Below are positions 11,260 to 30,781 of a stretch of 40,332 bases of DNA, piece after piece. Where the stretch lies: assembly GCA_017472305.1 (NCBI GenBank), contig JAFUQP010000014.1, positions 1 through 40,332 of the forward strand, given 5' to 3'. A program made the position numbers and the translations under genes. This DNA is from Clostridia bacterium. GTDB taxonomy: Bacteria; Bacillota; Clostridia; Oscillospirales; CAG-272. How positions within the stretch are numbered: position 1 is the first letter of the stretch; each line of letters begins with the position of its first letter. The notes under the pieces are model-generated. The model had not been told where the DNA came from and did no database searches. It saw nothing but the letters and a program-made list of their open reading frames with translations.

Positions 11260-11763
11260 TTAATAGCCGCTGATGGGCAGGTCCTCATTATCGGTGCCCT
11301 TGGTTATTTTTCTAATTTCGACGTAGTACTCCATATTCTCGTTAACCTTTACGAGAACTCTGTCGCCGACACGCTTTCCCATAAGCGCCGAGCCGAGCGG
11401 CGACTCCTTGCTGACGTAGCCGAGCAGCGCGTTCTGACGGAGAGTCGTGACTATCTCGATTTCCTTCTCCGCCTTCATTCGCTCGTTGAAAATCAGCACC
11501 CTGTCAAAGAGGCATATCTCGTCCGCATCTCCCTCGATATCTATGACGTTTGCCGTCCTTATCATATTTTCAAGATAGCGAATTCTGCCCTCGTTCTTTC
11601 TTTTCAGCCGCTTTGCTTCCTTGTATTCGGCATTCTCCGAGAGGTCGCCGAACTCACGCGTTCTGCGAAGCTCCGCGCCGAGCTCAGGCGCTAGGACATT
11701 CTTTCGGTAGGAGATTTCCTCCTCCATTTTCTTAATATCTACCTTGGTTAATTCGTCGTACAT
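11260..11763 (-). CDS. greA: Transcription elongation factor GreA
   Basis: GreA enters the RNA polymerase secondary channel and helps cleave the RNA of backtracked complexes. The 167-residue protein has the N-terminal coiled coil with the acidic tip motif EFGDLSENAEYKEAKRL (family GDLSENAEY) and the C-terminal FKBP-like domain with SPLGSALMGKRVGDRV. The start (MYDELTKVDIKKMEEEI) fits the family, yet I see no clear ribosome binding site before it; a strong hairpin ends 13 bases upstream. It is the last gene of the PAP2-ackA-greA run. Its stop codon is followed by repeat DNA rather than its terminator. Confidence 0.95.
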   Translation of the reverse strand: MYDELTKVDIKKMEEEISYRKNVLAPELGAELRRTREFGDLSENAEYKEAKRLKRKNEGRIRYLENMIRTANVIDIEGDADEICLFDRVLIFNERMKAEKEIEIVTTLRQNALLGYVSKESPLGSALMGKRVGDRVLVKVNENMEYYVEIRKITKGTDNEDLPISGY

Positions 11764-11776
11764 TTCTAACTAATAC

Positions 11777-11805
11777 AGCGTCGCCGCATCATCTGCGGCG
11801 ACGCT
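11777..11805. other. 12-bp hairpin directly upstream of greA
   Basis: AGCGTCGCCGCA and TGCGGCGACGCT pair perfectly around TCATC. The U-rich tail (TTTCCTTTTG) is on the plus strand, where there is no gene to terminate; on the greA strand the hairpin sits in the 119-base ackA-greA gap, 13 bases before the ATG. It might be an ackA 3' end, a translational control of greA, or an antisense terminator. The pairing is certain, the role is not. Confidence 0.55.
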
Positions 11806-11882
11806 TTTCCTTTTGTTATTTCAGAGATTACGGTACTGAAAAACAGCCGTCCGAAAGCCGTTTTTCCGCGATTTTGTAAATA

Positions 11883-13085
11883 TTACTTTACAAGTCCCTC
11901 AACGATTTCCTTAGTATCTCTTGCGATAACGAGCTCCTCGTTGGTGGGGATTACGAACACCTTAATCTTCGAGTCGGGTGTGGAAATCTCGACCTCCTCG
12001 CCTCTTATCTTGTTCTTTTCCTCATCGAGCTTAACGCCCATAAACGCAAGCTTCTCGCAGAGCTCTGCTCTGTACTTGCCCGCGTTCTCACCGATACCGC
12101 CGGTGAATACTATTGCATCGGTACCGCCCATACAAGCTATGTAGGAGCCGACGTTCTTTGCAATCTGGTGAGAGTACATCTTCTCGCAGAGAATAGCTCT
12201 CTCGTCGCCTGCCGCTGCAAGCTTGCCAATCTCCTGGTTGTCGCTGGTCTTGCCAGATACGCCGAGCATACCCGACTTTTTGTTCATCATCTTGTCAATC
12301 TCGTCAGCGGTGGTAACCTCACCCTTACGCATAAGGTAAGGAATGATAGCCGAGTCGATGTTACCGCATCTGGTACCCATCATAATACCCTCAAGAGGAG
12401 TTACGCCCATCGAGGTGTCGTAGCACTTGCCGTTCTTGACTGCCGCAAACGACGCACCGTTACCGAGGTGACAGGTTACAACGTTACACTCAGAGGCAGG
12501 CTTTCCGAGCATTGCAATCGCTCTCTCGCTTACGTATCTGTGAGAGGTACCGTGGAAGCCGTAGCGGCGAATCTTGTACTTCTCGTAGTACTCATAGGGG
12601 AGCGCGTACATATACGCGTAGTCAGGCATTGTCTGGTGGAAGCTGGTGTCGAATACCGCTACCTGGGGAACCGACATAATCTTCTCGCACTCAACGATAC
12701 CCTTAAGGTTTGCAGGGTTGTGAAGTGGGCCGAGGTCGCAGCACTCCTCAATAGTAGCCTTAACCTCCTCGGTAACGAGAACCGAGCCCGAGAGCTTGTC
12801 ACCGCCGTGGAGAACTCTGTGTCCTACAGCGCCTATCTCGTCAACCGACTTGATTACTCCGAGCTTTTCGTCTACGAGAGTGTCAAGCACGAGCTTAAGT
12901 GCCTCTGCGTGAGTGGGCATGGAAACAGCGAGCTTATAATCCTCTCTGCCGGGAACCTTGAACTTGAAGCCCGACTTGCCGCCTATCTCCTCGCAAATAC
13001 CCTTTGCGATAACTGCTTCGTTGTCCATATCAATAAGCTGGAACTTAAGCGAAGAGCTGCCTGCGTTGATAACCAATACTTTCAT
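11883..13085 (-). CDS. ackA: Acetate kinase
   Basis: AckA converts acetyl phosphate and ADP to acetate and ATP, the energy-yielding last step of acetate fermentation. The 400-residue protein has the family's opening MKVLVINAGSSSLKFQLI, GHRVLHGG, FDTSFHQTMP, RRYGFHGTSHRYV, HLGNGAS and IVFTGGIGEN. I take the ATG at 13085, with AAGGA nine bases upstream, rather than an in-frame start 33 bases earlier. No pta lies next to it. It is 36 bases after the PAP2-like gene and shares its promoter. Confidence 0.96.
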   Translation of the reverse strand: MKVLVINAGSSSLKFQLIDMDNEAVIAKGICEEIGGKSGFKFKVPGREDYKLAVSMPTHAEALKLVLDTLVDEKLGVIKSVDEIGAVGHRVLHGGDKLSGSVLVTEEVKATIEECCDLGPLHNPANLKGIVECEKIMSVPQVAVFDTSFHQTMPDYAYMYALPYEYYEKYKIRRYGFHGTSHRYVSERAIAMLGKPASECNVVTCHLGNGASFAAVKNGKCYDTSMGVTPLEGIMMGTRCGNIDSAIIPYLMRKGEVTTADEIDKMMNKKSGMLGVSGKTSDNQEIGKLAAAGDERAILCEKMYSHQIAKNVGSYIACMGGTDAIVFTGGIGENAGKYRAELCEKLAFMGVKLDEEKNKIRGEEVEISTPDSKIKVFVIPTNEELVIARDTKEIVEGLVK

Positions 13086-13121
13086 TTTTCTATATCCTTC
13101 CAAATTTATTATTGTCAAAAT

Positions 13122-13595
13122 TTAAATGTTGAAAATCCAAAAATATCCAAGCGCCACAAGTAATCCGAGAATAGCTCCGCATACTACCTGCAGGTGAGTA
13201 TGTCCGACGAGAATCTTAAGCTTCTCGGTCTTAAGCTCCTCGTCCTTCTCAACGAGGTAGTTGTTGATAACCGAAACTATGCTTATTATAGACTCCGCCT
13301 GCTTACCCGTTTCGCGGCGAACTCCCGTCGCGTCGTGCATTACGATAACCGCAAGCACCGCGGCAATAGCGAACTCCACGCTGGCAAAGCCGCACTGAAT
13401 ACCGCACATAGCGGCAAGCGAGGTAACCGTCGCCGAGTGACCGCTCGGCATTCCGCCGTCACCGACGAGCCTTGATATAGTGAACCTTCTGTTCATTAAG
13501 GAATTAATAATCAGCTTCAATACCTGCGCTACGAGCCACGCGATTATAGGCACGAGCAGCACGGGGTTAAGAAAAACGTCAAATACCGTTCCCAC
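13122..13595 (-). CDS. Divergent PAP2 family membrane protein (DUF212, YuiD-like)
   Basis: A 157-residue membrane protein of the divergent PAP2 family, related to acid phosphatase/vanadium-dependent haloperoxidases. Family motifs are GGMPSGHSATVTSLA, IVMHDATGVRRETGKQAE and VGHTHLQVVCGAILG. The GxPSGHS and the distal GHT..Q..CG region are those expected to form the phosphatase site, but no activity is established for this group. The start has GGAGG upstream. It is the first gene of the operon with ackA and greA and is transcribed divergently from the sugar kinase. Confidence 0.9.
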   Translation of the reverse strand: MGTVFDVFLNPVLLVPIIAWLVAQVLKLIINSLMNRRFTISRLVGDGGMPSGHSATVTSLAAMCGIQCGFASVEFAIAAVLAVIVMHDATGVRRETGKQAESIISIVSVINNYLVEKDEELKTEKLKILVGHTHLQVVCGAILGLLVALGYFWIFNI

Positions 13596-13627
13596 GAAAA
13601 TCCTCCATAAAGCTTCGTTACTTTATT

Positions 13628-13656
13628 ATTCTACCACTTTTTCCTAAATATTGCAA
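13628..13656 (-). promoter_or_regulatory. Promoter of the PAP2-ackA-greA operon
   Basis: Minus strand TTGCAA (13656-13651), 17-base spacer, TAGAAT (13633-13628). The 12-base sequence AATAAAGTAACG follows immediately, in the initially transcribed region. Confidence 0.65.
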
Positions 13657-13692
13657 GGGGATTTTCAAATCTTACCAAAATAATTTAAAGCA

Positions 13693-13721
13693 TTGACTTA
13701 TTGGGAAAAATAATATATAAT
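13693..13721 (+). promoter_or_regulatory. Promoter of the PfkB sugar kinase gene
   Basis: TTGACT (13693-13698), 17-base spacer, TATAAT (13716-13721). The leader holds a small hairpin, GTCGCC and GGCGAC around GGGG (13742-13757), and then AAGGGAG seven bases before the ATG. Confidence 0.8.
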
Positions 13722-13770
13722 TAAAATAAAGTAACGTTAAGTCGCCGGGGGGCGACGGAAGGGAGAATTT

Positions 13771-14808
13771 ATGGTATCTGAACTAAAAAAAGGCGACTTC
13801 GGTGTTCTCGGAATTGGTGAGGTAATGCTCAGGCTGTCACCCGTCGGCAAGGAGAGAATATCCTACTGTGAAACCTTCGAGAAGCGCGCGGGCGGCTCTG
13901 AGCTGAACGTTGTTTCGGGTATTTCAATGCTAGGTATTCGCACAGGTATGATAACCAAGCTCCCAAAAAATGAGATAGGCAAATTTGCAAAGCACAAGAT
14001 ACGCTACTCGGGTACGAGCGACGACTACGTTATCTACGACGAGTCACCCGAGATGAGGCTTGGAATATACTATTACGAGAGCGGAGCCTATCCCAGAGTT
14101 TCGGTTGTTTCCTACGACAGAAGGGCGTCGTCCTTCACCCGCTTCAAGAAAGAGGAGCTGCCCGAGAAAATATACTCCTCTGCGAGCATCTTCCACACAA
14201 GCGGCATCACCCTCGCGCTCGGCGAGGAGCTGCGCGAGAACGTTATTGATATGATGGAGCGCTTCCACAACGAGGGGGCTCTTATTTCCTTCGACGTAAA
14301 CTACCGTGCCGCACTCTGGGACGAGGACACGGCAAGAGAAACTATAAAAAGAGTTCTTCCCTTCATTGATATTCTCTTCGTTTCAGAGGAAACCTCGAGG
14401 AGAATGTTCGGTATGACGGGAACGCTTAAGGATATCCACAAGGAGTTTTCAAGGCAGTACCCGAACCTTGAGATTATAGCCAGCACCAAGCGCAAGGTAA
14501 TTTCGCCACAGAAGCACACCTTCTCCTCTCTCGTATACGACTGCAAGGAGGATAAGCACTTTGAGGAGAGCCCCTATGAGAATATCGACGTCGTTGACAG
14601 AATAGGCTCCGGAGATGCCTACGTTGCAGGCGCGCTCTACGCGCTCTTACGCTTCGGCTCGATTGAGAAGATGGCAGAATACGGCGACGCTATGGCGGCG
14701 CTCAAGAACACCGTCCTCGGCGATACCACTCAGTGCGATATAACCGATATCGAAAGAATTATTAAGAACCACAACACCACCGGCCCGAAAAACGAGATGG
14801 TAAGGTAG
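13771..14808 (+). CDS. PfkB family sugar kinase, 2-keto-3-deoxygluconate kinase-like
   Basis: A 345-residue ribokinase/PfkB-fold kinase. GGSELNVVSGISMLG (sugar-binding N-terminal signature) and DRIGSGDAYVAGALYALL (C-terminal signature with the catalytic GxGD aspartate) are both intact. The start GEVMLRLSP and the SELNVVSGISMLG stretch resemble 2-dehydro-3-deoxygluconokinases (KdgK), which act in uronic acid breakdown, but related kinases for other sugars cannot be excluded. It is a single gene read divergently from the PAP2-like gene. No KDPG aldolase is next to it. If it is KdgK, a link with the nearby toroid/jelly-roll operon (uronate-containing polymers) is possible, but that is inference only. 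Confidence 0.85.
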   Translation: MVSELKKGDFGVLGIGEVMLRLSPVGKERISYCETFEKRAGGSELNVVSGISMLGIRTGMITKLPKNEIGKFAKHKIRYSGTSDDYVIYDESPEMRLGIYYYESGAYPRVSVVSYDRRASSFTRFKKEELPEKIYSSASIFHTSGITLALGEELRENVIDMMERFHNEGALISFDVNYRAALWDEDTARETIKRVLPFIDILFVSEETSRRMFGMTGTLKDIHKEFSRQYPNLEIIASTKRKVISPQKHTFSSLVYDCKEDKHFEESPYENIDVVDRIGSGDAYVAGALYALLRFGSIEKMAEYGDAMAALKNTVLGDTTQCDITDIERIIKNHNTTGPKNEMVR

Positions 14809-14974
14809 GCAGCTCCAACCAAAACCGAACTCACCGCAAGCGCAGAAAACTCGCGCAGCTTTTGGAAAGCTCACTTGTAAGGCGCAGCCGTAGCAGAGTA
14901 AAACGCAATCCACTGTTGTTTGGCAACGCCCAATATTTTCTGACCGAAAATCGGCTCAAAATTTTACAAGCCCC

Positions 14975-15003
14975 TTGATTTTAATGCTCGGGTATGCTAA
15001 AAT
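14975..15003 (+). promoter_or_regulatory. Promoter of small membrane protein gene
   Basis: TTGATT (14975-14980), 17-base spacer, TAAAAT (14998-15003), about 34 bases before the start codon. The preceding 14809-14974 holds only a weak CCGA/TCGG hairpin and nothing else I can name. Confidence 0.65.
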
Positions 15004-15036
15004 AAATTTAGAATACTTAAAAAGGAGATTTTCATT

Positions 15037-15288
15037 ATGGCAAAGAAAAAGACACTCACAAGACAGTATGACGAGCTTCCTTTTATTCTCAGACTCCTCA
15101 TACAGATTATCGGAGGCATCGTGGTTGGCGGTATTTACCGTCTTGTTCGCTACACCGAGTCGAAGAACACCGTAACCCTCGTTTTCGGTATTCTCTTCAC
15201 CTTCACCGGAGTACTCAATATATTCGCTTGGGTTATCGACGTAGTATCCCTCATTCTCTACAAGAAGTACACGATTCTCGTAGACTAA
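15037..15288 (+). CDS. Small two-helix membrane protein, unknown function
   Basis: An 83-residue protein starting MAKKKTLTRQYDELPF with two hydrophobic segments, about residues 17-37 (ILRLLIQIIGGIVVGGIYRL) and 46-75. The long hydrophobic runs, a basic N-terminus, its own promoter, a good AAAAAGGAG ribosome site and a perfect terminator all say it is a real, monocistronic gene. I do not recognise the family. It sits between the sugar kinase (same strand) and the convergent toroid-protein operon. Confidence 0.8.
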   Translation: MAKKKTLTRQYDELPFILRLLIQIIGGIVVGGIYRLVRYTESKNTVTLVFGILFTFTGVLNIFAWVIDVVSLILYKKYTILVD

Positions 15289-15313
15289 AACCAACCGCCT
15301 TACATAGGCGAAA

Positions 15314-15353
15314 GCCGCATTTTGCAAAGCTTTGCAAAATGCGGCCTGTTTTT
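15314..15353 (+). terminator. Strong terminator of the small membrane protein gene
   Basis: GCCGCATTTTGCAAAG is followed directly by its exact complement (15330-15345), then CTGTTTTTTT. The stem shares the GCATTTTGCAAA arm with another terminator at 24986-25023. It may also stop the convergent operon ending at 15386. Confidence 0.85.
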
Positions 15354-15385
15354 TTATTATTAGCTCGTGAAAAGAATTTTTATAT

Positions 15386-16744
15386 TTAACCTCTATCCTT
15401 TGCAATGAGCATTTTCAAGTATCTCTCTCCGTCAAGCTCAGAAAAGAGAGTTGGCATTTTCGAGGTAATGCCGAGTGACTCGGCAAGTCTTGTGATAAGT
15501 CCTACGGAGGCAAGTCCGTTTCCGTTGACGTCGCCCTCGTAAGAGCCTCTTATTGCCACAGGCATATCCTGCGAGGTGGGCGAGGACATCTTCGGGCAGT
15601 AGGAGAAGGAGCCGTCGGGCTTCTTGAAGGGTGCGGCCTTCAAGCGAGCCGCGTTAATGAGCTCGGGCGCTCTTCCGAGAAGGTGGTCCTTGATAGCCTT
15701 CGCCCTCTTCTCTCCGTTCTCAAAGCCGCAGTTACGAAGGTTATAGCAAACCTGGTTAACCGCCCAGAAGGTGTTGAAGATGTCAACTATTCCCGAAAGC
15801 TCCTCGGTAGAGGTCATTGCGTCGATTGCCGACTTAGCCGCCGCCTCGGGGTATAGAAGCTGTCTTCTCGCGGTATTATAGAAGGATATAGTTTTTAAAA
15901 GACCGTTTACTCCGTAGTAGTTTGCCTCTTTATTCCAGTGACCTGTGTTGGGGTCCAGCTGGGAATCAAGCCAATCGACCGTGAGGTCGAGAATTCTGTA
16001 GTCGGCGCCCTCTGCCTCGAGCTGTCTGTCGCGCGCGGTAATCTGTGAGAGCTGAGTGACGAGGAGATTTCCGTGGTGGTAGGACTGGGTTTTCATATCA
16101 AGTCCCGAGAGATACTCAAGGAACCTTTCCTTGCTGCGGAAATGCTCGGCTATGTACGGTCCGTCAGGTGCCACGGAAGCCTCTCCGTCAGCCGAGGGTA
16201 CGCTCTTCGCTCTCTTCTCGCCTACCATTCCGTTCGGGGTATCGTAAATCGGAGCTCTGTTCATTGCGGTAAGGAACTTCGAGCACCAGACGAGGTCGCG
16301 CGAGCGGCGGTTCACCTGATTGTCTATAGCCTCCTTGCCCCACTGCGGGTGATAGAAGAAGCCGTTCTCGTCCTGTATTCCTCTGACGAAGTTAACCGAC
16401 TTTTCGAGTATATTCGCGGGAAAGAATTTTCTCCAATCGCTGCAAAGCCCGAGAGAAACCGCGTGACCGTGCGCCTGGCACATACTTTCGACGTCAGGAA
16501 GAAGCTTAAAGACTTTCCCCTTATGCGTTACGGTATCGTTGTCGCGCGCACTCTTTGAGTAATAGAACGCGCCTGTTTCTCTGTCATAAAGCTCAATATA
16601 CCAATCAAGCATATCCTCGGTGTATAGGTCGTAGAGCTTCTTGAACTCCTCTACCATCTCACCTCCAAGCTTGCCGCCCACTTCATCGCGTATTGCTTGC
16701 CAAAAGGGCTCTCTTCTGTTTTCTCTGTATTCCTTGAGATTCAT
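15386..16744 (-). CDS. Cytosolic alpha/alpha-toroid-like protein, unknown function (paralogue B)
   Basis: A 452-residue protein with no signal peptide or membrane segment. It is homologous over its length to the gene just upstream and to residues 200-660 of the giant lipoprotein. Conserved blocks: GAFYYSKSARDN, LPDVESMCQAHG, IQDENGFFYHPQW, NRRSRDLVWC, DTPNGMVGE, LDMKTQSYHHGN, DPNTGHW, YYGVNGLLK, PFKKPDGSFSY, SSPTSQDMPVAIRG and EGDVNGNG. The repeated DxxGxW/F pieces and the helical pattern suggest an alpha/alpha-toroid as in terpenoid-cyclase-like, lyase or glycosidase families; this is inference. Invariant H, D, R and W residues imply an active site. Its start overlaps the upstream stop by four bases (ATGA), with AAGGAG eight bases before it. 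I do not recognise a named family. Confidence 0.82.
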   Translation of the reverse strand: MNLKEYRENRREPFWQAIRDEVGGKLGGEMVEEFKKLYDLYTEDMLDWYIELYDRETGAFYYSKSARDNDTVTHKGKVFKLLPDVESMCQAHGHAVSLGLCSDWRKFFPANILEKSVNFVRGIQDENGFFYHPQWGKEAIDNQVNRRSRDLVWCSKFLTAMNRAPIYDTPNGMVGEKRAKSVPSADGEASVAPDGPYIAEHFRSKERFLEYLSGLDMKTQSYHHGNLLVTQLSQITARDRQLEAEGADYRILDLTVDWLDSQLDPNTGHWNKEANYYGVNGLLKTISFYNTARRQLLYPEAAAKSAIDAMTSTEELSGIVDIFNTFWAVNQVCYNLRNCGFENGEKRAKAIKDHLLGRAPELINAARLKAAPFKKPDGSFSYCPKMSSPTSQDMPVAIRGSYEGDVNGNGLASVGLITRLAESLGITSKMPTLFSELDGERYLKMLIAKDRG

Positions 16745-18105
16745 AATTCTTTCTCCTTACACCTTGCGTCGAGCAGGTCGACGAATATATTTTTTTCCAC
16801 CGCAGTAAATAGCGGAGGGGTAAATCTATCAAGTCCCATAGACCTGAGCATACGGTCACGGGTGCCGTTAACAGCAATTCCCGTCGCGTTTATATCGCCC
16901 TCGCGCGCGCCGCGTATCGCTACGGGCATATCCTGCGAGGTAGGCGAGGAGCAGTCGGGAAGATAGGAGAAGGAGCAGCCGGGCTTTGAAAATACCGATA
17001 GCTTTGCCTTCGTTTTTTCAATCATCTCGGGCGCCTTTTCTATTATTTCTGCAATCAGCGCCTCGGCGCGTATTTTGCCGTCATCTCCGCCGAAGAGCCT
17101 CAGGTTGCCGAGTATTATAGATATCGCGTACCAGGTGTTATAAATGTCGGTTATCGACTTTACCGGCTCGTTTGAAAGCACCGCGCGGATAGCCGACCTC
17201 GCCGAAGCCTCGGGATACGGCATTATCCGCCTTGCGTCGGAATACATCGAGCCCGCCTTAAGGAAGCCCGATACTCCGTAATAGCTATCCTCGCTCTCCC
17301 AGTGTCCCGTTTCGGGATTTAGCGTTTCACTCATCCAGTCGCAAAGAATATCCATAAGCGAATAGTCCTTGCCCTCGGCACGCAGAATCCTGTCGCGCTC
17401 GAGAATAATACCCGTTTGGGTAGTTATCTCGTTGCCCGAGTGATACGAGGTTGACTTCATATCGAAGCCTGACAGATATTTTACGAAATGCTCTTTGTCG
17501 ATAAGATGCTCCGGAAGCTCAGCCTTTGATTCGGGCTTTGCCGCCTCGCAAGGCGCGGAGGAGCGCCACTCTCCGCGAAGTCCGTCGGGAGTATCGAAAT
17601 TAGGCCGCTCTCCGACAGCACGCAGAAAGGTTGAGCACCAATGCAGGTCCCTTGCCCTTCTGTTGGTTTGCGAGTCAATCCATTCCTTATCCCACTGAGG
17701 GTGATAGAAGAAGCCGTTCTCGTGCTGAATACTCTTTATAAAATCTACAACCCGTCTGTAAATCCTGTCGGGATAGATATCCTTCGGCGGTATGTTGTCC
17801 CCTGCCCTGATTGCCCTTGCTACAAACCCGAGCGCCTGGCAGGTCGACTCGACGTCAACCCCGAGAGAAACTCTTCTTCCCTTGAATTCAACAAACTCGT
17901 TATCACGTGCGCTCGGCGAATAGTAGAACGCGCCCGTCTTGCCGTCGTAAAGGCGCGAGAGCCAGAGTATTACGTCCTCGCTGTAAATTGAGTAGAGGTC
18001 TGCTACCGCCTCGGCGGTATTTCTTCCGAGAGCGCCGCCTATATGCTCGCTTATCGCCTTATAATAAGGAGAGCGCTCTCTTTCAAACAAATTCGTCTTA
18101 CTCAT
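16741..18105 (-). CDS. Cytosolic alpha/alpha-toroid-like protein, unknown function (paralogue A)
   Basis: A 454-residue soluble protein without signal peptide, paralogous to the downstream gene and to the N-terminal domain of the giant lipoprotein. It keeps GAFYYSPSARDNEF, DVESTCQALGF, IQHENGFFYHPQWDKE, NRRARDLHWC, DTPDGLRGE, LSGFDMKSTSYHSGN, NPETGHWESE, YYGVSGFLK, SFSYLPDCSSPTSQDMPVAIRG and a weakened last loop, EGDINATG instead of EGDVNGNG. The usual DGSFSY is GCSFSY here. It is the second gene of the operon, 73 bases after the lipoprotein gene, with AAGGA seven bases before the ATG and a 9-bp hairpin just upstream. Two cytosolic copies beside one exported copy suggest the same kind of substrate is handled on both sides of the membrane. 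Confidence 0.82.
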   Translation of the reverse strand: MSKTNLFERERSPYYKAISEHIGGALGRNTAEAVADLYSIYSEDVILWLSRLYDGKTGAFYYSPSARDNEFVEFKGRRVSLGVDVESTCQALGFVARAIRAGDNIPPKDIYPDRIYRRVVDFIKSIQHENGFFYHPQWDKEWIDSQTNRRARDLHWCSTFLRAVGERPNFDTPDGLRGEWRSSAPCEAAKPESKAELPEHLIDKEHFVKYLSGFDMKSTSYHSGNEITTQTGIILERDRILRAEGKDYSLMDILCDWMSETLNPETGHWESEDSYYGVSGFLKAGSMYSDARRIMPYPEASARSAIRAVLSNEPVKSITDIYNTWYAISIILGNLRLFGGDDGKIRAEALIAEIIEKAPEMIEKTKAKLSVFSKPGCSFSYLPDCSSPTSQDMPVAIRGAREGDINATGIAVNGTRDRMLRSMGLDRFTPPLFTAVEKNIFVDLLDARCKEKEL

Positions 18106-18116
18106 TTTTCCTTTCT

Positions 18117-18138
18117 CGGGCGCAGTTTTCTGCGCCCG
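18117..18138 (-). other. Intercistronic hairpin next to the ribosome binding site of paralogue A
   Basis: CGGGCGCAG and CTGCGCCCG pair perfectly around four bases, ending a few bases before the AAAGGA ribosome site of the gene at 18105. There is no U-run, so it probably stabilises or tunes the downstream message rather than ending it. Role inferred. Confidence 0.6.
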
Positions 18139-18178
18139 TTTGCCGTTAAATGTAAATTTTAGTTGACTTTTTGAGCGA

Positions 18179-21100
18179 TTATTCCCCAGACTCAGTAACG
18201 GAAGCGTTCTCCGCTCCTACGTAGACGTTATCAAGTGTATAATCTGCGCCCGTTCTGATACCGATGCTCACACCGACGAGCTCGTAGTCTGCGCCCTTGC
18301 CTCTTTGGTTGCTCTCGGTAAGGAGAGAGCCGTTCAAGTAGATTCTTACGGAGCGCGAATAGGTATAGCCCGTTACGGCGCCCTCACCGTCGGTTATCTC
18401 GGTCTTTGTTATCTCGACCTCGTAGCGGACGGTCGCCCATTCTCCGCACGCGAGTGCCGCAAGCGCTCCGTCGCAGAAGCCGTCGCTGTTCTCGTCCTTG
18501 TAGTTATAGAGGCCGAGCCCCAGATAAGCCGTGCCGTCGCCGTCATAGACTACAGTGAGCCTTTCGCCCTGGTCGGTTATGGTTACAGTGTTGCCGCCAG
18601 AGCTTCCCTGCAGATAAATCATAGTTGACCAGTTAGGATTAGAGGAGCCCGACACCTTCATATCGTTCCAACGGATATCCGCCTCAAATACGTAGAGGTT
18701 GCCGATAGTATTCCCCTCGGCAGGAGCAAAAGACGTACTCGTCTTCACAGTCGTACTGCCCGTTGCCTTGTCAGAATAGGTCATAGTTTTTTCGTTATCG
18801 GCGTATTTACCTGCCGCCGGTCCCTCGTCAAGCACGGGCACGGGAGTATATGCGCCAACGTATACGTTATCGAAGTCAAACGAACCGCTCGTTCTTACGT
18901 TGAATTTGCCAACACTATAGGGAGTAAGTCTTGCCGACGCAGCTGTTCTCTCAACGAGTGAGCCGACCGGAATGCCGTCAAGAAACACCTTAAGCTCGCG
19001 GTAAATTGTGCCGTCCTCGTTTTCGGTCTGATGCACCTCGTAGCGGATATTGTACCACTTGCCGTGCTCGAGAGTCGCAATGCTTCCGTCGGCAACGCCG
19101 TCGCCGTCGTTGTCCTTATAATCCGCGCCGCCAATAGTCAGAAACGCGTTGAGCCCGCCGTTGTATACAAGCATAAGCCTTCCGCTCTGCGTAGTTGCAA
19201 GAGTATCGGTGCCCGCATTGTCGTAGAGAAGGTTCCAGTGTGCAACCCACGTAGGATTTGAGCCTGCACCCTTATAAAGCTCCGTCCAGCGGAAATCGTG
19301 CTCGAACACGAACACGTCACCCGCCGAGAGGCTCTCGGGAACCTCAAAGCTCTGTGACACCGTGCCCGAGAGATATCCGTTCACCGTAGAGTCGTAGCCC
19401 TCTGCGGTAGCCTCGTCTGCATAAGCTCCAAGGCCTGGGCCGTCCTCTATAACCACAGGTGGCTTATAGTCGCTCGTGTGGTCGGTGCATACCCCGTTAT
19501 GCTCCTTAAGGCTGACGTTGTCGAGAAGCATTCTGCCCGAGGCAGAGCTGAGCGAGGAAATTCTGACCGCGGACAGTTTCTCGTTCGGAGTCGCGCCGTC
19601 GATATTATTGCCGTAGAAGTTGTTGCTTATGTATACGCACTCGCCGTCAAGGTAGAACTTCATTCTCACGCTATCCCTGTCGCCGCGGAAGAACTCAAGC
19701 TTGAAGTTAAACCACTCGCCAACAGAAACCGACTTTTCTGAAATCCAATTAACCTTCAGAGAGCTCGTGCTGCTTGCGCGTTCAAGGAAGCTGACCTTTC
19801 CGTCCGATGAAAGCTCTAGCTGTATCATATAAACGGCATCAAGGTTGCCGTCATCACGCTCCGCACCGAAGAATATCTGCCAGATAGCTCCTGTCATCTC
19901 GGACGTAACATTCATATCCGCCGTGAAGATTGCGCCGTTATTTACCTCGAGAGGCTTCGTCGTGCTGACTACGACTCTGTCGTTTGCGCCGGCGCCCGTG
20001 AGGAACTCGAGCACCTTTGACGGAGTACCGTATACCGAGTCCTCAATAACGTCTATCGCACCGCCGCCGCTCTTTAAGCTATAGGTGACGGTCTTCGGTA
20101 CGCTGTTGGTGCTGCTCGACTCAAAGGTCAGGGTTTCTGCCGCGTCCTCTGCGTTCGGTGCCTTGCCGACCTCGTCCTCACACGTGCCGCGCAGCTGCTC
20201 GAATTTCACGTTATCGAAGGCTATCGTGGCAATAGACGCGTTAAGCGCGCTGAAGCGCACCTTTGAGATATTCTGCCCCGGCTTTGCAGCGTTGTCGTGG
20301 CTGTTATAGAAGTTATCGCTTATGTAAAGAAGCTCGCCGTTAACGGTTATTTTTATTCTCACCGTATCTCTCGTGCCCTCGTAATACTCAAGCTTGAGCC
20401 TGAACCACTCGCCCTCTTCAATCGAGTTCTGGCAGAGAATCCGCTGCTTCTTATTGCCTGCCGTGGTATGCGAGGTTTCCTGCAGAGTTACCGTGCCTTG
20501 TGCGGTGAGGTTTACGTTTATCATATACGCCGCCGCGCCGTCCTCACCGACGAATGCAAGCTGGTAGAGCGTGGTTGCAAGAGAGGAGTCGATTTTAATA
20601 TCCGACTCGAACGCGAAGTAATTCGCGCTCGAAAGCGTCTTTGCGGGAAGGAAGCAAACCATATCTCCCGAGCCCGTCGAGGTATCAAAGGCAAGTGCCT
20701 TGGAGAACACTCCGTCGACGTAGCTGCCGACTATTCTCGCGTCCGCTCCGTTTGTAACGAGAGTAGGCTCTGCAAGGACGGGAATATTGCCCGTGAAGCT
20801 GTCCTCGAAGGTCAGAACCTCTGCCTTGTCCTCGTCGTTTTTACCTTCTATTTCGGGACGGGTGTGCTCTCGGACGTATCTTCCTTCTGAGAGCACGTTG
20901 TCAACCGAGGCGCTTATCGGGGCGAGCGCTTCAATCCGCAGATACGCCGCAGGAGCGCTGAAGCTCGACTCGGAGTAATAGATACCCGATACCGACTGCG
21001 CCTTGCCGCCGACGTACAGAACGGTTTCGCCGTCCACGGTGTAGAAGTCAAATGCCAGCTTTATCTTATTGCTGATAAGGCATATCGGCTTTGGAGTCCT

Positions 21101-24100
21101 GCCGTGCTCGCTTAAGTCATAGAGATAGGCTCTGCCCCCCTCGCCAACAATTCTGAAGGCGACAATCTTATTGCCTTGAGAGTCTACGAAGCTTATATCC
21201 ATAAGCTCTCCCTCTCCGACAGACGAAAGCTGAAGATTCATCTCAGCCGAGTAAACCGAGGAGAGTACCATTCTTCTGTTCACGGGAATACTGAGAGCAC
21301 CCACGCCGCCTGTAAATTTTGCAGCACCGCCGCCGACCGCAACCGAGCCCGAGGCAACAGCCCCCTCGGGAAGCCCATTTGCGAAGGTGTGGATTATGCT
21401 CGAGCTGTGCGCACCCGTAAGGCTATCAAACGAGGAGGGTATCTTTTCGGCTGTGAGATTATCTACACGAAGCTCACATTCCGCGCCCTTCACCGTCTTG
21501 ATTTCGAGAAGCGCCGCCTTGTATTTTATTGCTCCCTGAGAGGAAGCCGAGCTTATCGTAAGTGCCTCACCGTTCAGATATATAGCCGAGGTTTTCATCT
21601 TCTCGTAATATTCTATACGGAGCCTCACGTGCTCGCCGAGAGCCAGCTTAATACCGCCAAGCGAGGAGCCGAGAATTCCGTCGGGAGCCTCGTGAAGCGA
21701 CACGTATTTCTCTCCGTCCACCTCGCTCACGGCAAGGCGATAGCTCATAAGGTCGTTATCAAATCTGTTATCCTCGCGGAAGCTTAGTTCAGCTATAGCT
21801 CCGACCGATGCGCTCGCGACCGATATATCAGCCTCGAAAACGTCGACCGATGCCATCTCTCCGCGCCACTGAAGCGGAGCTCTGACCGACGCGGAGTCAC
21901 CCGACTTATTGCCCACAATCGAGAGGTAGCCGTTATTTACCGCGACGCTTCCGCCGCCTGCGCTTGCCGATATGCTCTCGGGAAGAGTCGCCGAGGAGTC
22001 GAAGTCGTATAGCGCCTTACCGTTGTCGGCTGCATCAATATTTATCGCGGGATTTTCCTCTGCCGTTGCCTTCTCATAACGGGCAACGTCCCTGTAGGAA
22101 TAAACGTTGTCTATAAGTAGATGCGCGCTTGCAGACCTTCTTACGAATATCTCGGTATAGTTGAAGGTCGAAAGAACGTTATATTTGAGTCCTCGTACCT
22201 TGTGTCCGTTCTCATTACCGAAGTTGTCCGTTACCGCTATAAGCTCACCGTCTACGTAGAACTTTATTCTTACGGTGTCCTCGTCACCGAGATAATAAAC
22301 CGCCTTGACGTTGAACCACTCGCCGATAGGAATTCCATCCTTTAAGCAGACCTGCATTGAATAGCTGTTGTGAGTAGAGGAGTTCTCCCATATCTCTACC
22401 GTATTCGTCTTTTTATTAACCAGCAGTGAGAATCTGTAGGACAGACCCATATCTATGAATATCGAGAAATCCTCGCTGTTACCGAGTACCGCAAAATCGG
22501 CGGAGAATACGAAGGACGAGGGATTTTTAACAGAAGCGGGGTTATCTATTCTCAACGTATCGTTGCCCGTAGTAGAGGTACCCGATATGAATTCAAGAAC
22601 CTTGCCGTCATAATCTCTCGGGTCCACTATAACCTTTGCCGAGCCCTCTGAGTACATTTCGGTCACGAGCATAAGCGACTCACTGCCTACGGCGTCGTTT
22701 TCAAAGTCTATAGTCTCGATAATAACGTCGCTTTCGTCCTTGATAACGCTTTCAAGCGAGTCGATGACGTCAAAGAACTTGCGCCTATCGTTATCGGTAT
22801 ATATCGGCACTCTGTAGTCGCCAAGACCAAAGGCGCTGTAAAGATGCTCCGTAACGCCGTTTATCGCGATACCGTTTCCGTTTACGTCACCCTCAACCTG
22901 CTTCGGAAGAGTTACGGGCATTCCCTGCGAAATCTCCGAGGAATAATACCGTCCGTAGGAAAATGAGCCGTCCGGCTTCTTAAAGGGAGCTATCTTTTGC
23001 GTTGCTATCCTTATGGACGTAGGGGCAGACTCGAGCATCATTTTACTGATGGCATCTGCCTTCTTATCTCCGTCGGCGGCAAACTTTCTTACGTTGGAGC
23101 GAACGTTGCTGAGCGCCCAAAACGCATTGTATATATCCACTATTCCTGAGATTGGCTCGGTTGAATTTATTGCCTTAAGACAGGAATCTATTGCCCTCTC
23201 CCAATTAGGAAACAGTCTCTCTGCAGTGGTTATCGTACCAACAATCTTAAGCACTCCGTTTACGCCCTCATAATCGGAATATCCGGCATCGGTAGGCTTC
23301 TTTAAATCCCACGTTCCGGTTTCAGGATTCTGATGCTCGAATAACCAATCGCAAATTACGTCAAGCACTCGCCAATTCGCTCCTTGCTCAGAGAGGGTTT
23401 TGTCTCTCGAAGTAAAATCTCCAAGCTGAGTCGACAGAAGGTTACATACGTAATAAGAGTTTCCGTTTATGTCAAGCCCCGCAAGGTACTCGACGAGCGC
23501 TTCCTTGGTCAGAAGGTGCTCGGGAACGCTTGCCGACGATTCAACCGACACGACCTTCGATACCGCAACGACCGAGTTCGAGCATTTAAGCGGTCTGCAG
23601 CTTGTCAGCGAGGGCGCGCCCTCTCCTGCCATGCCTCTCGGGGTATCGTAGTACGGGGCTACCCCAACCTCTCGAAGCCAATCCTGACACCAGACGAGGT
23701 CGCGCGCACGACGGTTAGTGGTCAGCTCATCCTTGTCCCACTGCGGATGGTAAAACCATCCGTCCTCATCCTGCAAGCTTCTTACGAAATGAGTGATTTT
23801 ATTCTCCATCTCTTCAGAAATCGCATTATGGAAGTTTCCGCCGTAATACTGGTCAAGAGCGCCTGTGTTCGCAAGGAAGGCAAGCGCCTGATATGTAGAC
23901 TCAACGTCAGGCAGGAAGCCGTAGTTATCGCGCGCCGCGTTGGAATAATAGAAAGCCGCGCCGCCGCACTTCTGCGAGCCGGTGCACACGTCCGTACCGC
24001 AGTAGCATACGTACGGCTCGTAGAGATTTGCAAGCCATGTCAGAGCATCGGAGGAATAAAGAGAATAATGGTCACGGAATGCCGCAACTATCTCCTCGCC

Positions 24101-24751
24101 AAGCTCACCGCCCACGTGCTCCGCAAGTCTTTGCCACTTTTCCTCGCGCCACTCCTCGTCCTCTGCCTGATAGTATGCGTCCATATCGAAGGTACCCTTG
24201 TAGAGCACACCGACGCCGGGCTTGATAGCACCCTGAGCCAGTCTTTCAACGAGCCGTCCTGCCCCCGTAAGTGCCGCCGCGTGGCGCTCGTCAATATCAT
24301 AGGCTATAGCGAAATTCTCGCCGTCGGAATACACAACGTAGGCGAGGAAGTCATCGCTGGTTTTCTGAAGGCGCGAGAGCCTTCTGTACGCTGCAACCGA
24401 GGCGGGGTGAGTGCTCTCACCGAGAATAACCGATACGTCATATTCTCCCGTGCCGTTTTCCGAGGGGGAAACACCCGTAGCGGTATAAATCGCCGAGTAA
24501 AGCTTGTTTGCCGAGCTCTTTGCGTTTTCCTCATCATTATATATTATATTAACCCTGCAGCCCTTGCCAAAAAGACCGTCGAAGGAGCCGTTGCCTGTTG
24601 CATCACCGCCGCCCGAGGTATCCCCCGAGCCACCGCCCGAGGTATCGCCGCCGCCCTGTGACGAATCGCCACCGTCATCGCCGCAGGAAACGGCAAGCGT
24701 AAGCGAGAGCATAAGAGCCAGCATTAAAAGTAATAGCTTCTTAACCTTCAT
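18179..24751 (-). CDS. Giant surface lipoprotein: toroid-like domain plus seven jelly-roll repeats
   Basis: A 2190-residue exported lipoprotein. Residues 1-23 are a signal peptide (KVKK, a long leucine-rich core) with lipobox LAVSC and lipid cysteine C23, then a Gly/Ser/Asp linker to about 56. Residues 65-190 resemble the small alpha/beta domain found before some glycosidases (YDVSVILGES, FAIAYDIDE). Residues 200-660 are the toroid-like domain shared with the two downstream genes (FLPDVESTYQALAF, DEDGWFYHPQWDK, NRRARDLVWC, DTPRGMAGE, KKPDGSFSYG, EGDVNGNG). Then come seven concanavalin/LamG-like units, about 680-885, 912-1098, 1118-1288, 1309-1517, 1538-1749, 1769-1966 and 1974-2180, most ending in a DNV motif. 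Units 6 and 7 contain calcium-loop-like inserts (DNDGDGVADG, DENSDGFCDG). No sortase or S-layer signal is present. Surface polymer binding and processing is inferred; the substrate is unknown. Confidence 0.85.
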   Translation of the reverse strand: MKVKKLLLLMLALMLSLTLAVSCGDDGGDSSQGGGDTSGGGSGDTSGGGDATGNGSFDGLFGKGCRVNIIYNDEENAKSSANKLYSAIYTATGVSPSENGTGEYDVSVILGESTHPASVAAYRRLSRLQKTSDDFLAYVVYSDGENFAIAYDIDERHAAALTGAGRLVERLAQGAIKPGVGVLYKGTFDMDAYYQAEDEEWREEKWQRLAEHVGGELGEEIVAAFRDHYSLYSSDALTWLANLYEPYVCYCGTDVCTGSQKCGGAAFYYSNAARDNYGFLPDVESTYQALAFLANTGALDQYYGGNFHNAISEEMENKITHFVRSLQDEDGWFYHPQWDKDELTTNRRARDLVWCQDWLREVGVAPYYDTPRGMAGEGAPSLTSCRPLKCSNSVVAVSKVVSVESSASVPEHLLTKEALVEYLAGLDINGNSYYVCNLLSTQLGDFTSRDKTLSEQGANWRVLDVICDWLFEHQNPETGTWDLKKPTDAGYSDYEGVNGVLKIVGTITTAERLFPNWERAIDSCLKAINSTEPISGIVDIYNAFWALSNVRSNVRKFAADGDKKADAISKMMLESAPTSIRIATQKIAPFKKPDGSFSYGRYYSSEISQGMPVTLPKQVEGDVNGNGIAINGVTEHLYSAFGLGDYRVPIYTDNDRRKFFDVIDSLESVIKDESDVIIETIDFENDAVGSESLMLVTEMYSEGSAKVIVDPRDYDGKVLEFISGTSTTGNDTLRIDNPASVKNPSSFVFSADFAVLGNSEDFSIFIDMGLSYRFSLLVNKKTNTVEIWENSSTHNSYSMQVCLKDGIPIGEWFNVKAVYYLGDEDTVRIKFYVDGELIAVTDNFGNENGHKVRGLKYNVLSTFNYTEIFVRRSASAHLLIDNVYSYRDVARYEKATAEENPAINIDAADNGKALYDFDSSATLPESISASAGGGSVAVNNGYLSIVGNKSGDSASVRAPLQWRGEMASVDVFEADISVASASVGAIAELSFREDNRFDNDLMSYRLAVSEVDGEKYVSLHEAPDGILGSSLGGIKLALGEHVRLRIEYYEKMKTSAIYLNGEALTISSASSQGAIKYKAALLEIKTVKGAECELRVDNLTAEKIPSSFDSLTGAHSSSIIHTFANGLPEGAVASGSVAVGGGAAKFTGGVGALSIPVNRRMVLSSVYSAEMNLQLSSVGEGELMDISFVDSQGNKIVAFRIVGEGGRAYLYDLSEHGRTPKPICLISNKIKLAFDFYTVDGETVLYVGGKAQSVSGIYYSESSFSAPAAYLRIEALAPISASVDNVLSEGRYVREHTRPEIEGKNDEDKAEVLTFEDSFTGNIPVLAEPTLVTNGADARIVGSYVDGVFSKALAFDTSTGSGDMVCFLPAKTLSSANYFAFESDIKIDSSLATTLYQLAFVGEDGAAAYMINVNLTAQGTVTLQETSHTTAGNKKQRILCQNSIEEGEWFRLKLEYYEGTRDTVRIKITVNGELLYISDNFYNSHDNAAKPGQNISKVRFSALNASIATIAFDNVKFEQLRGTCEDEVGKAPNAEDAAETLTFESSSTNSVPKTVTYSLKSGGGAIDVIEDSVYGTPSKVLEFLTGAGANDRVVVSTTKPLEVNNGAIFTADMNVTSEMTGAIWQIFFGAERDDGNLDAVYMIQLELSSDGKVSFLERASSTSSLKVNWISEKSVSVGEWFNFKLEFFRGDRDSVRMKFYLDGECVYISNNFYGNNIDGATPNEKLSAVRISSLSSASGRMLLDNVSLKEHNGVCTDHTSDYKPPVVIEDGPGLGAYADEATAEGYDSTVNGYLSGTVSQSFEVPESLSAGDVFVFEHDFRWTELYKGAGSNPTWVAHWNLLYDNAGTDTLATTQSGRLMLVYNGGLNAFLTIGGADYKDNDGDGVADGSIATLEHGKWYNIRYEVHQTENEDGTIYRELKVFLDGIPVGSLVERTAASARLTPYSVGKFNVRTSGSFDFDNVYVGAYTPVPVLDEGPAAGKYADNEKTMTYSDKATGSTTVKTSTSFAPAEGNTIGNLYVFEADIRWNDMKVSGSSNPNWSTMIYLQGSSGGNTVTITDQGERLTVVYDGDGTAYLGLGLYNYKDENSDGFCDGALAALACGEWATVRYEVEITKTEITDGEGAVTGYTYSRSVRIYLNGSLLTESNQRGKGADYELVGVSIGIRTGADYTLDNVYVGAENASVTESGE

Positions 24752-24785
24752 TAGAATTAATCCTTTCGCGCTAATATATTTGGTT

Positions 24786-24801
24786 AGCCGTAAAAACGGC
24801 T
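24786..24801 (-). other. Small hairpin in the leader of the giant lipoprotein gene
   Basis: AGCCGT and ACGGCT pair around AAAA in the roughly 60-base leader. GGTTAGCC next to it resembles half of an iron box, but the other half does not fit, so I count it only as a hairpin. Confidence 0.4.
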
Positions 24802-24819
24802 GAACAGTTTTACACTTTA

Positions 24820-24848
24820 ATTATATCAAAACGGCGTTTGCTGTTCAA
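24820..24848 (-). promoter_or_regulatory. Promoter of the lipoprotein/toroid operon
   Basis: Minus strand TTGAAC (24848-24843), 17-base spacer, TATAAT (24825-24820). The -35 box is imperfect and is touched by an upstream direct repeat, the layout expected of an activator-dependent promoter. Confidence 0.8.
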
Positions 24849-24850
24849 TT

Positions 24851-24885
24851 GACAAATCGCCGATTGTTTATGGACAAATCGCCGA
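24851..24885 (-). promoter_or_regulatory. AraC-type operator: two 13-bp direct repeats with 22-bp period
   Basis: GACAAATCGCCGA occurs at 24851-24863 and again, identical, at 24873-24885 (plus strand). The near copy ends two bases from the -35 box. Tandem half-sites about two helical turns apart abutting -35 are typical for AraC-family activators, and two such genes lie 4-6 kb away. Which of them binds here is unknown. The rest of 24886-24985 shows nothing I can name. Confidence 0.65.
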
Positions 24886-24985: not shown

Positions 24986-25023
24986 GAGCGCATTTTGCAA
25001 ACCAAAGTTTGCAAAATGCGCTC
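24986..25023 (-). terminator. Terminator of the feo operon
   Basis: GAGCGCATTTTGCAAAC and its exact complement (25007-25023) form a 17-bp stem with a 4-base loop, followed on the minus strand by TTTTTGCG. Its GCATTTTGCAAA arm is the same as in the terminator at 15314. Confidence 0.85.
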
Positions 25024-28318: not shown

Positions 28319-29179
28319 TTATCCCTGTCTTTCCCTATATTCCCCGGGCGTCATACCTACGTATTTCTTGAAAACGCGCTGGAAATACAGCCTGTCGCGG
28401 TAGCCTACTCTGTCGGCTATCTCGGCTATTGCAAGACTTGGTTGGGTAAGCAAGTCCTTCGCCTTCATAATACGAAGCCTTACGATATATTCGCTTGGCG
28501 AGCAGCCCATAACCTCGCGAAACAGCTCTCTGTATCGGCTCACCCCGAGGAACTCCATAGCGGCAAGGCTCTCAACCGAGAGATTATCACGAAGGTGACT
28601 GTGGATATAGCTCACCGAAACGTCAAGGCGCGGAGAGGTGTCCTCGTATCTTGCGCGTCCAAGTCGCAGAAATGCGTTGCGAAGCTCCACAGAGAGAACG
28701 TACTCAAGGTTCTTTCTGCAGGTTCTCGACTCGTAGAAGAGCTTCTCGTATTGGTCAAGTACGGATTTTGAGTTCTTTAGCTTGTAGACGGTGTTGGTCA
28801 TAATATCCGACTTCTGAAGCGCATCACGCGCACCGTAGCCCGTGAAGTGAATCCAATAGTAGCGAAGTATTCTATCCTCGGGTGCCACCGGATAAAATGA
28901 GAACGGCGTATGCTCGCTGATACAAATAAAATTGTCCTTACGGAGAATCTGCTCGTCACCGCTAAGAAAGAGCTTTATCGCTCCCGAGGTTACGTGAATG
29001 ATATAAAAATCGTTTCTTCCGCGGCGACTGTAATCCTCCTTGAAATAGTAGTCGGTAACCGACTCTCCGCAGCAGTTGACCTGTAGGTCGGTTTCCTTGT
29101 CGTCACTATTGTTCAGTGCGGGCGAGGCGTTCTTGAAGTAGCTTACCGAGCTACCTGCTTCCATGCTTTTCTTGTTCAT
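28319..29179 (-). CDS. AraC family transcriptional regulator (copy 1)
   Basis: A 286-residue regulator. The N-terminal half is a cupin-like sensing domain (DFYIIHVTSGAIKLFL, then FYPVAPEDRILRYYWIHFTG) and the last 100 residues are the double helix-turn-helix of AraC/XylS proteins (LSVESLAAMEFLGVSRYREL, IAEIADRVGYRDRLYFQRVF, GMTPGEYRER). Its ATG has AGGGAG five bases upstream. It is paralogous to the AraC gene at 29870-30781, including a shared LQVNCCGE motif near residues 33-40. It may control the lipoprotein/toroid operon, whose promoter has an AraC-type operator; that link is inference. It is divergent from the DtxR gene. Confidence 0.92.
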   Translation of the reverse strand: MNKKSMEAGSSVSYFKNASPALNNSDDKETDLQVNCCGESVTDYYFKEDYSRRGRNDFYIIHVTSGAIKLFLSGDEQILRKDNFICISEHTPFSFYPVAPEDRILRYYWIHFTGYGARDALQKSDIMTNTVYKLKNSKSVLDQYEKLFYESRTCRKNLEYVLSVELRNAFLRLGRARYEDTSPRLDVSVSYIHSHLRDNLSVESLAAMEFLGVSRYRELFREVMGCSPSEYIVRLRIMKAKDLLTQPSLAIAEIADRVGYRDRLYFQRVFKKYVGMTPGEYRERQG

Positions 29180-29869: not shown

Positions 29870-30781
29870 TCACTTGTTCGAATTGCCGCTTATGCTCTTG
29901 GTTCTTCGAAGGCCTCGCCTGTACTCTCCGGGGGTTACCCCCTCCGAAAGCTTGAAAACGCGTTGAAAATACGGCCCGTCCTGATAACCCGTGAGCAGAG
30001 CAATCTCCGCAACCGTTGAATTCGTTTCGGAAAGAAGATCCTTTGCCCTCGCCATTCGGAGCGCCGTAATATACTCGCTCGGGCTCATTCCTGTTATTTC
30101 TCTGAAAACCTCTCGGAAGCGGCTGACACCGAGAAATTCCATTGAAGCCAGCCTCTCAACCGACAGCTCCTCTCCGACGTGCGCGTGAATGTATTTCAGC
30201 GAGGCGTCGAGCCTTCCCTCGCGCGAATTGGCGAGCGCCTTGCCGATAAGGTGAAGAATATACCGAAGCTCCACGCCCGAGGAGTAATCAAAGCTCTCGG
30301 ACTGTCTGTTCAGACGGAATTCCTCGAATAGCTTGGAAAAATGAGATATCACATCGGTTAATATCCCGATGCTTCGTACCTCGCCCGGGCTTATGCCCGC
30401 AAGACTTACCGCCGACTCTGCCTCCGAACCCGTGAAATGTATCCAGTAATAGACAATAGGCTCACTCGCATTGACTGACGCCCTGAAGGTGCAGGGTGTT
30501 CTCGGGCTCATACATACAACACTTCCGCGCTCAAGACATACAGCCTTTCCGTCAATCGTACCGAGCATCTGCCCGCCCTGCATATAAATCAAATAAAAAT
30601 CGCGCCTGCCCGAGCGATAGCCGCCGCGATAGTCCTTGTTATCAACGAATGCCTCACCGCAGCAGTTGACCTGAAGGGCAGAAGTCGTGTCCTCGACGTT
30701 GTTATTTGTGCCAAGGTTTTTCGATGCAATTCTGTAATAGCACTCCCTGTCGGTTGGGGTGCTGTAAACCGTATGCTTCAT
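29870..30781 (-). CDS. AraC family transcriptional regulator (copy 2)
   Basis: A 303-residue paralogue of the regulator at 28319-29179. The N-terminal cupin-like half keeps SALQVNCCGEAFVDNKDYRG, RRDFYLIYMQGG and YYWIHFTGSEAE; the C-terminal 100 residues are the AraC helix-turn-helix pair (LSVERLASMEFLGVSRFREV, VAEIALLTGYQDGPYFQRVF, GVTPGEYRRG). AGGAG precedes the ATG. It stands convergent to the DtxR gene and has its own promoter with an adjacent direct repeat, so self-control is plausible. Effector unknown; sugars or oligosaccharides are the common choice for this architecture. Confidence 0.92.
   Translation of the reverse strand: MKHTVYSTPTDRECYYRIASKNLGTNNNVEDTTSALQVNCCGEAFVDNKDYRGGYRSGRRDFYLIYMQGGQMLGTIDGKAVCLERGSVVCMSPRTPCTFRASVNASEPIVYYWIHFTGSEAESAVSLAGISPGEVRSIGILTDVISHFSKLFEEFRLNRQSESFDYSSGVELRYILHLIGKALANSREGRLDASLKYIHAHVGEELSVERLASMEFLGVSRFREVFREITGMSPSEYITALRMARAKDLLSETNSTVAEIALLTGYQDGPYFQRVFKLSEGVTPGEYRRGLRRTKSISGNSNK

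Follow-up and report, generated by a model that had tools for sequence, protein, structure and literature searches.

Exported and cytosolic copies of an undescribed, predicted α/α-toroid domain are paired at 19 of 20 loci in a gut Clostridia genome and may serve glycan utilization

Results

A giant lipoprotein and two cytosolic paralogs share one domain

The window analyzed in this study, a stretch of 40,332 nucleotides (positions 1 to 40,332 of contig JAFUQP010000014.1, assembly GCA_017472305.1, Clostridia bacterium, CAG-272), possesses three consecutive genes on the minus strand, namely, one for a giant surface lipoprotein of 2190 residues (18179–24751) and two for signal-less paralogs of its residues 193–674, cytosolic copy A (454 amino acids; 16741–18105) and cytosolic copy B (452 amino acids; 15386–16744). 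The domain that they share is predicted to be an α/α-toroid and recurs throughout the genome in exported and cytosolic copies. An earlier note on this DNA, made from the sequence alone, had described three consecutive open reading frames (ORFs) here, the last two of them overlapping; our analysis agrees and puts the overlap at 4 nt. The giant was assigned by ORF and profile match, B by ORF and domain comparison, and A by these two and a predicted structure.

The giant begins with MKVKKLLLLMLALMLSLTLAVSC, a signal peptide with a lipobox as read from the sequence (residues 1–23, final AVSC; 24683–24751), followed by a low-complexity linker. An α/β N-domain (residues ~66–190; 24182–24556), which in a profile of 43 N-domains is weakly similar to the N-terminal domain of GH84 NagJ, precedes the toroid domain (residues 193–674; 22730–24175, by profile match). 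The remainder (residues 690–2190; 18182–22684) consists of approximately seven LamG/ConA-like jelly-roll repeats, recognized by segment comparison, with repeat ends placed by a DN(V/L) motif; four of the six segments compared were mutually related and two matched only themselves, the last repeat lying outside the comparison. A sequence check found no hydrophobic leader in A or B, which agrees with the earlier assignment of one exported and two internal copies. Over the domain (~450 residues), A is 46% identical to B and 40% identical to the giant, and with A as the query against the own assembly, the E values were 1.7e-129 for B and 1.3e-87 for the giant, far beyond chance. The motif blocks listed in the earlier note are present in all three proteins with small deviations, such as WFYHPQW in the giant and DTPDGLRGE in copy A.

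Exported and cytosolic copies are paired at most loci

A tblastn search of the own assembly (2.03 Mb, 86% complete) gave 57 matches, and the stretches read around them contained 43 copies of the domain in 20 loci, 22 exported (X) and 21 cytosolic (C). A copy was classed as exported when more than 150 residues preceded the toroid. The coding sequence of the toroid proteins amounts to 136 kb, or 6.7% of the assembly. The operon seen in the earlier note is real and is one of 20 loci, a scale that the note understated. That note had taken homologs that never occur together as a sign against its reading; exported and cytosolic copies are found together at 19 of the 20 own loci. A lipobox is present in 62 of 66 exported copies from the own and other genomes, and 20 of the 21 own cytosolic copies lack a hydrophobic leader; that of the 21st, at L043 (L and G denote our locus and genome numbers; G000 is the own genome), is probably due to the choice of an upstream start.

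Two departures from the usual make-up were seen in G075. At L090:8215-11052, a 945-residue lipoprotein without a toroid match takes the place of the exported partner and adjoins a cytosolic copy 85% identical to that of L031. L080:457-2520 encodes an XRE helix-turn-helix, an SRA-like domain, and a cytosolic toroid in one protein, and it shares 4 nt with the exported gene.

A third exported protein, C3, is encoded at 18 of the 20 own loci and is absent from the window locus. Full copies have 471 to 720 residues and an N-domain of their own, and the copies that were read also have one or two jelly rolls. At L028:11079-13877 and at L084:2049-5801, a single exported protein combines the C3 N-domain with a toroid. 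We rejected C3 as an obligate partner: it occurs in 12 of the 20 genus genomes with the toroid and is not strictly codistributed with it, because it also occurs in 21 of the 49 genomes without the domain (toroid scored at E 1e-10, C3 at E 1e-5).

The toroid domain is present in 20 of 69 genomes of the genus, the own genome included. Among 295 genomes of the order, it occurred in no other genus, and among 398 genomes of the phylum, it occurred in two further genomes, both from one other family, in whose order 3 of 10 genomes have it. A named relative is the metagenome-assembled genome RGIG4040 from roe deer cecum, in which a single-sequence scan of the genome contigs found one locus. Plasmid, phage, and viral collections gave no match, and an origin from such elements was rejected for the collections searched. 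In G075, 26 of 38 first-look candidates were scored, and some loci may be missing from its count. L047 is the same gene pair as L070 and was left out of the tree, the copy count, and the closest-copy test described below.

The domain matches no family in the libraries searched

No match above the cut-off was found for the shared domain in Pfam or NCBIfam, and the sequences in the Protein Data Bank (PDB) gave no credible match (best E 0.3). Against Pfam Prenyltrans (PF00432), the window giant scored 11.8 bits, below the cut-off of 26.5, and 13 of 65 members matched at E up to 1 (best 0.0075). Literature searches returned nothing that describes the family. The toroid domain is undescribed in the libraries searched, and neither it nor the inside–outside pairing matches a family that could be found; the statement in the earlier note that no named family was known has thus held for Pfam and NCBIfam. 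The α/α-toroid suggested there is supported by the predicted structure, for which prenyltransferase β subunits were nearest among the 50 fold matches listed; no lyase was among these 50, a list that does not exclude one.

The motifs DGYFYHPQW and TGLW presumably resemble the QW-like turns of prenyltransferases and class II terpene cyclases. The zinc ligands of the protein prenyltransferase β subunit are Asp, Cys, and His, and DxDD is the motif of class II terpene cyclases. Among 135 members (two outgroup rows and the divergent L069:11344 left out), no Cys column exceeded 64%, and any DxDD occurred in only 17. One His is widely conserved, at 90% of members (His135, 93% of X and 84% of C copies), and is Asp in the outgroup; Tyr134 is conserved. 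K283 and N323 are invariant in 135 of 135 members and R152 is present in 134, in the exported and the cytosolic class alike. Together with four largely conserved acids, they form a set of seven conserved residues. At L043, both partners (L043:3153-4760 and L043:4773-9188) share unusual changes at two of the conserved acids, E86 to Q and E402 to C.

Partners at one locus often resemble each other

We compared each exported copy with all cytosolic copies of its genome, leaving out members under 250 model positions and exact duplicates and setting the class of four exceptions (L080:457, L084:12802, L099:1407, and L102:8097) by hand. The closest cytosolic copy was that of the same locus for 10 of 21 exported copies in G000 (expected 1.1, permutation p <5e-5), 6 of 11 in G030 (expected 1.15, permutation p 0.0016), and 4 of 13 in G075 (expected 0.88, permutation p 0.003). 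In a 93-row tree, from which two members under 320 model positions were left out and in which the signal-less fusion L080:457 was counted as exported, explaining the exported/cytosolic label takes 14 changes, and starred branches force at least 11 of these; shuffled labels took 31 on average. A large number of cytosolic copies group in a single clade, and their exported partners belong to different clades. Elsewhere, as at the window locus, whose trio forms its own clade (support 96), the copies inside and outside are most closely related to one another. In our reading, this pattern would reflect selection that keeps one copy on each side of the membrane with the same target.

The site of the window trio shows turnover of toroid genes. 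Between window positions 11260–16744 and L068 (G030), GreA, AckA, and PfkB are 81 to 96% identical and the toroid genes 31 to 37% identical in four comparisons.

Related loci adjoin glycoside hydrolase genes

Of 25 genes for GH20 and GH43 glycoside hydrolases (GHs) in three related genomes, counts that are not independent, 14 are no more than 10 kb from a toroid locus (p 2.5e-4; expectation from the own genome, 22% of which is this close to one). A cluster of seven genes, GH1, GH43, AraC, X, C, GH4, and C3, is shared by two species at 65 to 87% identity (L045 in G000 and L091 in G075); the identity between them is 71% for X and 79% for C, and the GH1–GH43 pair is inverted in L091. Further neighbors of toroid loci are GH20 and GH39 (L070), GH92 (L041), DUF4838 (L033 and L105), GH2 (L083), GH2 with UxuA (L089), GH39 (L078), GH43 (L093), GH20C (L095 and L096), and a GH20-like protein with a sialic-acid-specific acetylesterase (SASA) (L092). 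The glycan context proposed in the earlier note is thus supported by genes that adjoin other members of the family and not the window locus. Other neighbors, noted by eye, are an ATP-binding cassette (ABC) ATPase with an amino-acid-type permease (L083:17138-18575, G012) and a large ABC-type protein (L086:9959-13405, G075).

That note had also suggested a uronate glycan from a nearby gene resembling a KDG kinase. We rejected this reading, as the gene, PfkB, lies on the other strand and belongs to the conserved GreA–AckA–PfkB stretch, a housekeeping stretch 81 to 96% identical in the sister genome. UxuA was seen beside one locus (L089), and to our knowledge, most of the GH families found beside toroid loci are not uronate-specific.

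The accessory parts of the giants point to carbohydrate. A profile of the 43 giant N-domains had its best PDB match, a marginal one, in the N-terminal domain of GH84 NagJ (nine sequences, E 0.048 to 0.11). One N-domain member matched Pfam GAPES2 (E 1.5e-4). Of the 21 own giants, seven have C-terminal repeats that match Pfam LamG_3, and five have repeats that match PF14099, a polysaccharide-lyase jelly roll. The C-terminal end of the L045 giant resembles a polysaccharide deacetylase by eye.

Operator-like repeat and AraC-type regulators

A direct repeat of two 16-nt copies lies ~100 to 130 nt upstream of the giant (24848–24885; repeat search). The copies, at 24848–24863 and 24870–24885, are 22 nt apart and 94% identical, and no equal arose when the 300 nt upstream were shuffled 100 times, so the operator-like repeat noticed earlier is real. 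An AraC-type operator upstream of every giant was considered and rejected: a direct repeat at 20 to 23 nt (shuffle p up to 0.05) was found in 8 of 67 upstream regions against 3.4 expected, a modest excess carried by single loci. A Pfam scan identified two AraC-type regulator genes on the minus strand, a candidate regulator of the cassette (28319–29179) and a second one (29870–30781), both beyond FeoB and at least 3.5 kb from the giant.

Discussion

The most likely explanation is that the cassettes are modular glycan-utilization loci built on a new carbohydrate-active domain that acts on both sides of the membrane, with the activity and the substrate being what we infer; each cassette probably handles one particular sugar polymer. 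A role in glycan utilization seems to us probable, and a catalytic toroid is slightly favored over one that only binds. The giant lipoprotein would be anchored in the membrane through its lipobox, its tandem jelly rolls would bind a polysaccharide or the glycan of a glycoprotein, and its toroid domain would act on the bound glycan at the surface. The cytosolic copy would then act on the same sugar motif once imported, linked glycosidases would complete the breakdown, and AraC-type regulators may turn single cassettes on. We give this full scheme, with the window as one of about 20 glycan-specific cassettes in the genome, a chance just short of even. A more specific proposal is tentative and, in our view, possible rather than probable: a new carbohydrate-active domain on a prenyltransferase-type toroid would be deployed as mirrored pairs for about 20 glycans, with the outside copy on a giant lectin-like lipoprotein and, inside, a coevolved copy that shares its specificity. 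Capture outside would then be matched locus by locus to processing or sensing inside, with no importer dedicated to the pair.

Several findings weigh against this interpretation, and uptake is the main gap, as the analysis found no importer that forms part of the cassettes. None of 32 ABC permeases (PF00528) in three genomes lies within 10 kb of a toroid locus, and GPH carriers (PF13347) lie near loci in 3 of 16 cases by distances judged by eye, one of them strong (L089); therefore, the cassettes do not have an importer as a general partner. The Pfam scan of 20 window ORFs found no carbohydrate transporter, and the other loci were checked for PF00528 and PF13347 only, not for phosphotransferase system or other carriers. 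The same 20 ORFs contained no recognized GH, and the glycan role of the window locus rests on its relatives because no GH adjoins it. Genes for a GH or DUF4838 were identified at 4 of the 20 own loci (L030, L033, L041, and L045), 4 of 8 GH20 and GH43 genes lie near loci in the own genome alone, and the 82 own neighbors belong mostly to unrelated housekeeping families (25 of 119 families listed). AraC-type genes occur in the fetched stretches of 11 of the 20 own loci, a count with no background rate for comparison. In the giant N-domain, the NagJ match stays marginal (E 0.048), no Pfam family was found in more than one of the 43 sequences, and the model is poor (predicted local distance difference test score 52). 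The predicted fold yields no catalytic assignment. Of the seven conserved residues, one or more are absent from 10 of 68 exported copies and from 18 of 67 cytosolic ones, from which it follows that the inner copies are somewhat less conserved. At 16 loci with X and C in separate clades, the excess of same-locus resemblance is small (0.361 versus 0.351, p 0.006) and the mirror-tree correlation weak (r 0.31, p 0.036), and both statistics are inflated by orthologous cassettes of related genomes among these loci, which were picked by hand from the tree. Duplication and gene conversion could produce part of the pairing.

The main rival, which we regard as unlikely, treats the toroid as a noncatalytic glycan receptor, with the surface copy capturing a ligand that the cytosolic copy senses for transcription. 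Its best evidence is the XRE–SRA–toroid fusion at L080 with the 4-nt overlap to its exported gene; the AraC-type genes in 11 of 20 own stretches also speak for it, and the matched pairing fits a shared ligand. However, this helix-turn-helix fusion was seen once among 67 cytosolic copies, the others of which were not scanned with Pfam one by one, and separate AraC genes could already supply the sensing. The invariant Arg, Lys, and Asn with four largely conserved acids may resemble an active site, judging from conservation and not from spatial placement. If the pairs instead served surface recognition or competition, the giant would function as adhesin, as antigen, or as contact-dependent effector, with the cytosolic paralog as its self-recognition or protective partner. 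Matching of outside and inside partners locus by locus, toroid genes at 31 to 37% identity (four comparisons) amid neighbors at 81 to 96%, and a patchy presence in 20 of 69 genus genomes would suit such a role. We consider it improbable, given the clustering with GH genes, a GH-rich cluster with interspecies identities of 71% for X and 79% for C, and the lack of matches in phage, plasmid, and viral collections; in the C-terminal parts of the 21 own giants, the sole toxin-named Pfam match, RnlA_toxin_N in one member, was at chance (E 0.072).

Neutral pairing, in which tandem duplication and gene conversion make neighbors alike with no need for inside and outside copies, would account for the window trio and the pairs at L043, L036, L029, and L040, which cluster by locus in the tree. 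It does not explain readily why both compartments are represented at 19 of 20 own loci despite at least 11 label changes across the tree, or why X and C also stand together at the 16 loci where each sits in a separate clade, and we hold it to be as improbable as the competitive role. Still less probable is true membership of the prenyltransferases or class II terpene cyclases, acting on lipids or peptides. The predicted toroid is shared with them, but a shared helical toroid shows no function; the family motifs are absent (Cys reaches at most 64% in any column, only 17 of 135 members have DxDD, and the conserved His, at 90%, is replaced by Asp in the outgroup), and we rejected this identity.

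Set beside known systems, the glycan-utilization cassettes favored here are most like the Gram-positive polysaccharide utilization loci (gpPULs). The definition of a gpPUL includes a linked transporter (PMC5320581). The likenesses are dispersed loci, AraC-type genes near about half of them, linked GHs at some, and a patchy occurrence between species. The toroid loci differ in having none of the 32 PF00528 permeases within 10 kb and in their core, a new domain whose exported and cytosolic copies are matched, with many loci lacking a recognized GH; the enzyme there could be the toroid. Because a linked transporter was not found (ABC and GPH carriers; Pfam scan of the 20 window ORFs), we class the toroid system as a variant of glycan-utilization loci and not as a gpPUL member. 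The prenyltransferase β subunits and class II terpene cyclases share the predicted α/α-toroid, whereas the toroid domain lacks conserved zinc ligands and DxDD and scores below every cut-off in sequence. The (α/α)n-toroid polysaccharide lyases, such as PL35 (PMC12088678), resemble the giant in a helical toroid with a β-rich part, a glycan setting, and an invariant Asn. The toroid domain conserves Asn323 and Tyr134 in sequence, and lyases of the PL8/12/15/17/21/35 type use a Tyr/His base–acid pair with an Asn neutralizer. However, Asp replaces the widely conserved His in the outgroup, the sequences do not match, and no lyase was among the 50 fold matches listed.

The N-terminal domain of NagJ precedes a TIM barrel. 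The N-domain of the giant, likened by a marginal profile match to this GH84/GH20 N-terminal α/β domain, is followed instead by the helical toroid.

In this small gut genome, 136 kb of 2.03 Mb, almost 7%, is devoted to one uncharacterized domain, and 19 of 20 loci have it in inside–outside pairs. Should the toroid be an enzyme, its family would be a new carbohydrate-active one, and dozens of natural specificities could be compared, some of them narrowed by the neighboring GHs (GH1, GH43, and GH4; GH20 and GH39; GH92). The loci would also represent an organization of glycan use in a Gram-positive gut bacterium that would be missed by a definition of polysaccharide utilization loci demanding a linked transporter.

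Other features of the window and related loci

A perfect 17-nt inverted repeat with a 4-nt loop lies between FeoB and the giant (24986–25023; repeat search) and may end transcription of FeoB. Similar ORF fragments and short repeats recur in the flanks of L098, L099, and L102, low-copy loci of other congeners. Elsewhere in the window, two adjacent RadC-like genes (6858–7520 and 7517–8323) overlap by 4 nt.

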